Source: Flavobacteriaceae bacterium D16
GTDB taxonomy: Bacteria > Bacteroidota > Bacteroidia > Flavobacteriales > Flavobacteriaceae
Direction: 5' to 3'
Assembly (NCBI GenBank): GCA_021295155.1
Contig: JAJTJC010000035.1
Location: 806,001-870,000, forward strand
Length of the DNA stretch: 64,000 nucleotides
Shown here: positions 28,698 through 31,350 of the stretch, one piece after another
Layout of the letters: each line of letters opens with the position of its first letter
Numbering within the stretch: position 1 is the first letter of the stretch
Notes under the pieces: model-generated
The model's input: only the letters and a program-made list of their open reading frames with translations
Told to the model about the DNA's origin: nothing
Database searches by the model: none
Made by a program: the position numbers and the translations under genes

Positions 28698-30266
28698 TTA
28701 TTTAGCTACATTAACGGAACGTGTTTCCCGAATCACGGTAACTTTTACCTGACCCGGATAGGTCATATCGGTTTGTATTTTCTGAGATATCTCAAAAGAT
28801 AGTTGGGCCGCCTTTTCATCACTTACCTTCTCACTCTCCACAATAACCCTTAATTCTCGTCCTGCCTGTATGGCGTAGGCCTTTTGTACACCTCCGAAAC
28901 CAAAGGCTATTTCTTCCAGGTCCTTCAACCTCTGGATATAGCTGTCCAGGACTTGTCGCCTTGCTCCTGGCCTGGCTCCACTGATAGCATCACAGACCTG
29001 TACTATGGGAGAGATCAGGGATTTCATATCAATTTCATCGTGGTGAGCCCCAATAGCGTTGCAAACTTCAGCTTTTTCGCCAAATTTTTCTGCCCATTGC
29101 ATCCCCAATATAGCGTGAGGCGTTTCCACTTCCGCTTCCGAATTAGGAACTTTCCCTATATCGTGCAGTAAACCTGCCCTTTTTGCCAATTTAGGATTAA
29201 CCCCTAATTCGGCGGCCATTATTCCGCATAGTTTGGCTACTTCCCTCGAATGCTGTAAAAGGTTTTGGCCATAGGAAGAACGGTATTTCATCCTACCTAC
29301 CGCTCTAACTAATTCGGGATGTAATCCATGAATACCCAGGTCGATTACCGTCCGTTTACCCACTTCAACTATTTCCTGTTCTATTTGTTTTTCAGTCTTG
29401 CGCACGATTTCTTCTATACGTGCGGGGTGTATACGCCCATCGGTAACCAGCTTGTGAAGAGATAAGCGAGCTACTTCTCTGCGCACGGAATCAAAACACG
29501 ACAGTATGATGGCCTCCGGGGTGTCGTCTACAATGATCTCAACGCCAGTAGCAGACTCGAGGGCTCTGATATTTCGTCCTTCCCGACCAATAATCCTTCC
29601 TTTTACATCGTCAGATTCAAGGTTGAAGACGGAAACGCAGTTTTCAATAGCCTCTTCTGTACCTACGCGTTGAATAGTATTGATAACGATTTTTTTGGCT
29701 TCCTGTTGGGCAGAAAGTTTTACTTCTTCCAGGGTACTTTGCATGTAGGACATGGCATCTGCCTTGGCCTTCTCCTTGAGCGATTCAAACAGTTGTGACT
29801 TGGCCTCTTCTGCCGAAAGTCCCGATATTACCTCAAGTTGCTTTACCTGGCTATGGTGTAGTTTCTCTAGTTCGGCCTGCTTCTTTTCGTAGAATTCCCT
29901 TTTGTGGTCAACTTCTTTAAGCTTCGTTTCCAGCTTTTCATTATTGCGCCTCACTTTCGCCAATTCGCTGCTGATTTGGGACTCTTTATCCCGGGTCCTT
30001 TTCTCGGATTCGGCAATCTTTTTGTCTTTATTGATGATGACCTTTTCGTGTTCGGCCTTCATTTCCAAAAACTTTTCTTTAGCCTGGAAGATTTTATCCT
30101 TCTTGATACGCTCTCCCTCAATATTGGCATTTTTAATAATGGCGCTGGCGTCTTTTTTAGCCTGACCAATGGTCTTGGATGCCCTCCCCTTCTCCAGGAT
30201 CTTGGCAATGATAAATCCAAGGACCAATCCGCCTATTGCTGCGATTGAAATTGATGTTATGTCCAT
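28698..30266 (-). CDS. rny: Ribonuclease Y
   Basis: RNase Y is a membrane-anchored endoribonuclease that starts mRNA decay. The 522-residue protein has an N-terminal membrane helix ([17 protein letters not shown]), a long Lys/Glu-rich coiled coil (about 30-190), a KH domain with [15 protein letters not shown] near 225, and an HD domain with [12 protein letters not shown] near 365 (His-Asp pair) and GAHHDEID near 400. The length is standard. It lies downstream of zapA and the 6S RNA on the same strand. Confidence 0.96.
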
Positions 30267-30368: not shown

Positions 30369-30542
30369 AAAAAAAAGCCCACATTGGTTAGAAGTTTTGT
30401 ACAAACTCCAATAAACAGGTTTAGGGCTAACAGACTGATCAAGGATCCTCTAACAAGGAGGCATGCTTTTACAATCTAAACTCACCCTTTTTAAAAATAA
30501 TAGTGTTGAGTTTGTCAAAAAATATATTACCAATGTGGGCAG
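30369..30542 (-). ncRNA. ssrS: 6S RNA
   Basis: The 299-base gap between zapA and rny holds a long rod-like RNA on the minus strand. Its outer stem is perfect: the strand from 30540-30529 pairs with that from 30388-30377 (12 pairs), directly followed by eight U (30376-30369). A second helix joins 30515-30508 to 30408-30401 (8 perfect pairs) and continues with three pairs past a bulge. The interior holds further short pairings and a large open region, as in 6S RNA, which mimics an open promoter and binds RNA polymerase. Position next to zapA is the classic 6S location. A box AACATTTG (minus strand, 30547-30554) would start the RNA near 30542. The 174-base size fits. The call is by synteny and structure, not by a covariance search. 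Confidence 0.72.
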
Positions 30543-30565
30543 TAACAAATGTTATGTTAAAGAAC

Positions 30566-30862
30566 TTATTTCATGCTCAATTTGGAATTCACCAGTTCAT
30601 CCAGCGCGCGCAGACGCGCGTTAACTTCCCTGGTATCCTCCTGCTGATCAATGCCCCGCTGTTCAACCTTAGAGGCGAATTGCAAGGCACACATGGCCAG
30701 AACATCCTGTTTGTCGCGAACTGCGTAGTTCTGCTGGAATTTCCTGGCCAGCTGCTCGATATTCTTGGCAGCCTTCCGCAACCCTTCTTCCTGTTCCGGA
30801 TCAATGGTCAGGGGGTATACGCGGTCTGCAATGGATAGCTTTATCTTAAGCTTTTCTGCCAT
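30566..30862 (-). CDS. zapA: Cell division protein ZapA
   Basis: ZapA is a cytoplasmic protein that bundles FtsZ filaments at the division site. The 98-residue protein starts AEKLKIKLSIADRVYPLTIDPEQEEGLRKAAKNIEQLARKF, the globular head pattern of ZapA with the strand-strand-helix order. It continues into a coiled coil ending LDELVNSKLSMK. The size is typical. It follows the coiled-coil gene at 30879 by 16 bases and precedes the 6S RNA, whose promoter overlaps its 3' end. Confidence 0.92.
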   Translation of the reverse strand: MAEKLKIKLSIADRVYPLTIDPEQEEGLRKAAKNIEQLARKFQQNYAVRDKQDVLAMCALQFASKVEQRGIDQQEDTREVNARLRALDELVNSKLSMK

Positions 30863-30878: not shown

Positions 30879-31169
30879 CTAAACAGCGAGTTGTGCAATA
30901 CAATGGTCCAACTCCCTGATCAGCGAATTTATTTTGAGCTTTGCTTCTGTTTTATTAGTATCACTGCCCAGCATTGAGTTTGCCAGTTTGAGGGAATCAT
31001 ACTTTTCTTCCCAGTCCTTAGCGGATCTATTGGCCTTAACCAGCTTGTCTTTCAAGACTTGTAACTCTTGCTCCAGTCTAGAATTAGCCTGTGCCTGCAA
31101 CTCCAATTTATGCAGAACTTTGCTAATCTTATTCTCGAGAGAATCAACGATTTCAACCAATTCACTCAT
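30879..31169 (-). CDS. Small coiled-coil protein upstream of zapA
   Basis: The 96-residue protein is almost wholly helical with heptad repeats: VEIVDSLENKISKVLHKLELQAQ and SRLEQELQVLKDKLVKA, then a C-terminal INSLIRELDHCIAQL. It resembles ZapB-like division proteins in size, composition and position, but coiled coils make homology hard to prove, so I give no symbol. The start is ATG 31169 (MSELVEIVD). It is the first gene of the unit zapA-6S-rny, and a role with ZapA at the septum is the natural guess. Confidence 0.75.
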   Translation of the reverse strand: MSELVEIVDSLENKISKVLHKLELQAQANSRLEQELQVLKDKLVKANRSAKDWEEKYDSLKLANSMLGSDTNKTEAKLKINSLIRELDHCIAQLAV

Positions 31170-31350
31170 TTGCAAATTTCAATGCCATTCCTACAAATTT
31201 AAGATAGATAGTAAGACCTCGCAATTATTTTTGGAATTATTATTGAAGTATCACTTTAAGTGATTTTCTGATAATGCACGGATTCTTCAGGATCCCTTTC
31301 TATTATGACAATTAGGGCATATTAACTAATTTCGCACTAAGCTTCCTACT

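Follow-up and report, generated by a model that had tools for sequence, protein, structure and literature searches.

The RNA encoded on the minus strand at 30370–30542 of the window (the whole 64,000-nucleotide stretch of Flavobacteriaceae bacterium D16 DNA that was analysed) is a member of an already described family, 6S-Flavo (RF01685), and it is, with high confidence, an ordinary 6S RNA in which the complementarity of the 3′ strand to a second, apical partner is a product of chance and not a switch. Established for this RNA are its identity, structure, conservation and synteny, together with the absence of a selection signal for the proposed apical fold.

Identity and genomic context of the RNA

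The Rfam model of 6S-Flavo, a family described by Weinberg et al. 2010 (PMC2864571), matched the minus strand at 30511–30403 in a cmscan search (110.8 bits, cut-off 85; model positions 1–108), which confirms the earlier note in placing a 6S RNA between zapA and rny. The ends of the gene were set from the closing stem and the T-run, with the 5′ end approximate. A full-length model, R1, gave 179.4 bits at G000:C22:836370-836544 (window 30370–30544), a score that is not independent as the window's own RNA was among the rows used to build the model. The genome carries a single copy of 6S-Flavo, and 118 of 120 sampled genomes from the same family had an RF01685 match, 110 of them above the cut-off. 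The blocks ACUCAAC, GGGUGAGU, UAAACYUG and GGAGUUU of RF01685 are conserved in the window's family, but the Rfam model as printed pairs the inner helices only and lacks the closing helix P1.

Two further Rfam families were considered. Bacteroidales-1 (RF01693), labelled '6S-Bacteroidales RNA suggested' in its Rfam line, was a weak match below its cut-off (22.5 bits, cut-off 60), with an alignment that spans the whole model length, GGAGUUU block included. Membership in RF00013 (6S / SsrS) was rejected: the window's RNA shares with the E. coli 6S RNA a rod with a central bubble, but it scored only 29 bits (cut-off 46.4), and a search of the genome at E 0.001 returned no RF00013 match (0 of 1).

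The gene is flanked on the same strand by zapA (30566–30862; PF05164, 69.6 bits, cut-off 23.8) and by rny, encoding RNase Y (28698–30266; TIGR03319, 632.1 bits, cut-off 454.35). Among the 120 loci of the family, zapA was upstream of the RNA at 119 and rny downstream at 115 (tblastn, E 0.01), and the sole locus lacking zapA (L046) is broken by a contig end. Conservation of the region between zapA and rny, which the earlier note had named as a check on its proposal, was borne out by the presence of both neighbours at 114 of these loci. The position directly downstream of zapA is shared with the E. coli 6S RNA and is reported for beta- and gamma-proteobacteria (PMC7641849); the same source places ygfA next in many proteobacteria, whereas rny follows the 6S RNA of the window. 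A small coiled-coil-like protein is encoded upstream of zapA (30879–31175, minus strand), with a weak match to ZapB (14.4 bits, cut-off 31.5) among other sub-threshold matches, which suggests, without showing, the gene order zapB-zapA-6S at this locus.

A covarying rod of five helices

The minimum free energy (MFE) fold of 30545–30368 reached −52.1 kcal/mol (z = −5.19 compared to shuffles). Covariation was examined in the 66 loci left after the family's 120 had been thinned at 86% identity. Across these diverse homologues, a fold of five helices, P1–P5, had 96.1% of cells paired (85.7% when shuffled), changes on both sides of the pair in 31 of 39 pairs, and a covariation score of 0.425 (0.212 when shuffled), and pairing fell to 33–48% when the partners were slid by one to three columns. 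The rod of the functional 6S type, with a closing stem, a central bubble and an apical stem, is thereby supported by covariation in five helices.

All helices lie on the minus strand. The closing helix P1 joins GCCCACAUUGGU (30540–30529) to ACCAAUGUGGGC (30388–30377) with 12 of 12 pairs at −22.4 kcal/mol, a strength matched by none of 2000 shuffled 3′ strands, and in the 66 rows 11 of its 12 pairs had two-sided changes, with 97.7% of cells paired. The pairing of P1 is far beyond chance, and the perfect match of the 3′ strand to the 5′ end described in the earlier note stands. A run of eight U follows P1 (30369–30376), and the helix may also contribute to an intrinsic terminator, a combination that was not listed by a terminator scan covering loops of 3–8 only. 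P2, the downstream duplex, is formed by UUUUGACAAACUC (30508–30520) and GAGUUUGUACAAAA (30395–30408), with two-sided changes in 8 of 13 pairs. Inside it are P3, with GGGU (30484–30487) opposite 30424–30427 (4 of 4 pairs), P4, with 30472–30477 opposite 30432–30437 (5 of 6 pairs), and the apical hairpin P5 (30447–30461), with CCUC (30461–30458) opposite GAGG (30450–30447; 3 of 4 pairs).

By analogy to known 6S RNAs, the rod and its central bubble would mimic an open promoter. The 3′ strand of the bubble contains UAAACCUG (30416–30423, minus strand), a conserved element resembling the −7 promoter box of the Bacteroidota, TAnnTTTG (PMC9723704, PMC7366714), which is placed at −12 to −5 (PMC9723704); the element has CCUG in the place of TTTG, with CUUG as the family consensus. 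The nearly invariant ACUCAAC (30505–30511, minus strand) is the predicted template of a product RNA. Counting from the −7-like box with the spacing given in PMC9723704, the product RNA is predicted to start opposite C30505 and to read 5′-GUUGAGUUUGUC..., with GUUGAGUUU... as its predicted 5′ end. Polymerase binding, the start of the product RNA and release are the parts of this explanation that we infer: the 6S RNA would bind the housekeeping RNA polymerase holoenzyme, a short product RNA would be copied from the bound RNA, and synthesis of GUUGAGUUUGUC, starting opposite C30505, would open P2 and lead to release. Evidence for a product RNA is reported in Bacteroides thetaiotaomicron (PMC7366714), and a 6S RNA is reported as detected in Flavobacterium psychrophilum (PMC9723704).

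Chance-level complementarity of the 3′ strand to the apical strand

The earlier note had proposed that the 3′ strand could exchange P1 for an internal partner at about 30465–30450 and that the two folds form a built-in switch. The claimed pairing does exist on the sequence level, with 14 pairs and small bulges, and the two folds do exclude each other, but the partner GCCUCCUUGUUAGAGG lies at 30462–30447 (minus strand) and the strength of its complementarity to 30394–30377 is at the level of chance. The pairing consists of three blocks (GCCU/GGGC, UUG/CAA and UUAGAGG/CUUCUAA), and its best duplex, at −13.7 kcal/mol (z = −1.82 for the window's RNA), was equalled by 191 of 2000 dinucleotide-shuffled interiors and by 220 of 2000 3′ strands after shuffling. 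Among 120 homologues, the strongest pairing that the 3′ strand can make internally did not exceed that of shuffles (mean z, 0.27), and z was below −2 in three.

The apical fold also lacked covariation in the 66 rows, with 57.1% of cells paired compared to 57.8% when shuffled (403 of 500 shuffles as high) and a covariation score of 0.143 compared to 0.152. In all 120 rows, the three blocks had 79.1, 77.2 and 50.1% of cells paired (78.1, 78.6 and 51.0% when shuffled); the first, block (a), was marginally above its shuffles (79.1 against 78.1, maximum 78.9), in columns that are nearly invariant. Of the two folds that the covariation of homologues was meant to support in the earlier note, P1 is upheld and the apical partner is not, and the built-in switch of the 3′ strand is contradicted by covariation for one fold only. 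When 3′ strands were exchanged among the 120 loci, own strands bound better than foreign ones in P1 (mean, −18.11 and −13.09 kcal/mol, respectively) and equally well in the apical pairing (mean, −6.61 kcal/mol for both; apical segment cut by position, not alignment). The duplex of the window's RNA is stronger than average, and its apical strand is bound this well by only 5 of the family's 120 3′ strands (its own among them), a point in favour of a switch. At the two loci from the same genus, L122 and L123, CCAGUUAGAGG faces CUUCUGAUCAAU and the UUG/CAA block is broken, and the 7-bp block, as UUAGAGG/CUUCUGA, still pairs with wobbles.

Energetically, forcing the apical fold gave −23.7 kcal/mol (all 14 pairs) or −33.5 kcal/mol (7-bp block) compared to the MFE of −52.1 kcal/mol, a cost of approximately 19–28 kcal/mol, and the pairs of the 7-bp block had predicted probabilities of about 2e-12 to 1.5e-11. 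Because the internal strand overlaps P5, the proposed fold must break this covarying helix. With up to 20 nt of template blocked in silico, P1 was still intact, so that product RNA synthesis into P2 alone would not free the 3′ strand, and the MFE structure predicted after blocking all of the 5′ strand still contained the apical hairpin and lacked the proposed fold. Given its chance-level strength, the lack of covariation and of strand specificity, and its unfavourable energy, a switch in which the 3′ strand leaves P1 for the apical strand as polymerase makes the product RNA was rejected as highly improbable. An apical pairing formed only briefly while polymerase is bound, or confined to the genus, is a slight possibility.

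Homologues beyond the family

Searches with R1 found homologues in 123 of 196 genomes of the order, 30 of these in the window's family, and in 30 of 198 genomes of the class, six of these in the window's family; given the latter count, R1 misses most of the class. Loci outside the family (n = 84) comprised 60 of the 93 order matches, picked for spread, and 24 class loci, with rny downstream at 79 (tblastn, E 0.1). At these loci (L168–L251), zapA was upstream in 81 of 84 in the same tblastn search. RF01685 matched 5 of 12 genomes from other families, all below the cut-off, and in a set of 19 loci, one per family from 19 families, Rfam at gathering cut-offs called 0 of 19 where R1 matched the same loci end to end. 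Families f4 and f12 (L137 and L136) were used in the synteny listing alone. Weak R1 matches to the reverse complement (L001, 32.8 bits; L079, 26.2 bits; L201, 26.5 bits) probably reflect the nearly palindromic rod; the three were counted as artefacts and left out.

Candidate hairpins at P2

A better place for a switch would be P2 rather than the proposed pairing of the 3′ strand with the apical strand. Local pairing of the two P2 strands was compared across 19 families, using 160 rows that represent 150 distinct loci; the window's family contributed 76 rows, 10 of which repeat a locus already present, with ends that differ slightly. Three loci (L184, L190 and L191; families f38 and f37) in which a segment is missing were excluded from the family counts, so that 157 of the 160 rows were used.

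One possibility, which we hold as tentative and somewhat doubtful, is that the product RNA would pair with ACUCAAC and the sequence upstream and that the freed 3′ strand of P2 would fold on itself. With the 5′ strand of P2 blocked, a candidate release hairpin, GGAGUUU-GUACA-AAACUUC (30391–30409, minus strand), is predicted. Blocking 6 nt of template yielded a refolded RNA with this hairpin and with P2 open and P1 still closed, at a cost of 3.9 kcal/mol relative to the ground fold (hybrid uncounted), compared to 7.8 kcal/mol when the hairpin was forbidden. GGAGUUU would pair with AAACUUC in the window's RNA and the 3′ bubble strand would supply the partner in several other families, including UGUCUAAAC-GGA-GUUUAGACA in f7 rows and UCCU..AGGA, UCCA..UGGA and UCCG..CGGA elsewhere. 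In the subclade with GUUUGU, 14 of 23 rows retain CUUC and the remaining linker is variable (118 of 120 loci counted; L108 and L111, in which the motif was not found, were omitted). Shuffling the 3′ bubble gave a family-mean z of −0.69 for the energy, negative in 14 of 19 families, and a precedent is reported for E. coli 6S RNA, in which a 9-bp hairpin of the 3′ bubble forms upon P2 unwinding (PMC8876501). The likeness to the E. coli release hairpin is that a candidate 3′ hairpin is predicted after P2 opening; a difference is that, in the window's clade, it would recruit the linker that follows P2.

Several results weigh against such a release hairpin. Local pairing of the P2 3′ core exceeded dinucleotide shuffles in 13 of 19 families (p = 0.08, weak) and mononucleotide shuffles in 16 of 19, a result that depends on the null. 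Shuffling the linker downstream of P2 had a small effect (z averaged −0.18 and was below zero in 9 of 19 families), and the 3′ segment of the window's RNA was not clearly below shuffles in energy (z = 0.13 and −0.67). The AAAC/GUUU pairs had two-sided changes in none of the four tested, and the conservation of GUUU and AAAC may have other reasons. Within-family covariation of the P2 hairpins was assessed over pairs that exclude GGAG/CUUC.

Less probable, and on balance unlikely, is a hairpin of the 5′ bubble in which UGAGUUU (30478–30484, minus strand), as an alternative partner of AAACUCA (30513–30507), would compete for the template strand with both P2 and the product RNA. In 15 of 19 families the P2 5′ core was locally paired to a greater extent than in dinucleotide shuffles (sign p = 0.0096, moderate), with the same count for mononucleotide shuffles, compared to 4 of 19 and 11 of 19 for the strands of P1 used as controls, and the energy z of the 5′ segment averaged −0.92 and was below zero in 17 of the 19. 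Hairpins of the GCUAAACUC/GAGUUUAGC type occurred in 7 of 17 f7 rows and those of the GUUAAACUC/GAGUUUGAC type in 9 of 13 f11 rows, the two types differing by a C-G to U-A exchange. Against this, the families in the count are not mutually independent, and the P2 5′ core was paired below shuffles in f10, f13, f15 and f42 and barely above in f5. In the window's family, AAACUCA/UGAGUUU is paired in 86.1% of cells with hardly any variation, for which reason covariation is lacking (one pair changed on both sides compared to 0.5 when shuffled), and the energy signal was weak (mean z, −0.43; window RNA, −0.61). The 5′-bubble hairpin may also be a folding intermediate formed before the 3′ half is transcribed.

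Four f7 rows (L196, L198, L204 and L212) possess a very regular hairpin of the 3′ bubble, (UG)UCUAAAC-GGA-GUUUAGA(CA), that competes with P2, and also carry a 9-bp hairpin of the 5′ bubble, GCUAAACUC/GAGUUURGC; these are the clearest place for testing a switch at P2.

Combined, the two candidates yield a reading for the Bacteroidia that we regard as decidedly unlikely, in which each strand of P2 has its own local competitor and P2 opening would result in two local hairpins, a mode of release unlike that in E. coli or B. subtilis. The distal 5′ bubble copies the 3′ strand of P2 and hence the product RNA, so UGAGUUU could capture the template strand, and the freed 3′ strand would close on its neighbouring segment. 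The collapse helix of the B. subtilis 6S-1 central bubble (PMC8876501) is similar in that a strand of the bubble is proposed as another partner for P2 once the product RNA has been made; in 6S-1, however, the distal 5′ bubble is reported to pair with the 3′ strand of P2 (PMC8876501), whereas the distal 5′ bubble of the window's RNA looks like the P2 3′ strand and would have the 5′ strand as its partner. As the families share ancestry and the pairs tested within the window's family lack covariation, the P2 hairpins are a lead and not a result.

Implications

The analysis removes a false switch from the 6S RNA of the window and provides a structure that covariation supports along its full length, with the closing helix P1 that the Rfam model lacks. 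R1 finds syntenic 6S genes in several Bacteroidia families for which Rfam makes no call at its cut-offs, so the apparent lack of 6S RNA there may be a gap in annotation. Should the competitors of P2 be real, product-RNA release would become a testable question in this class.
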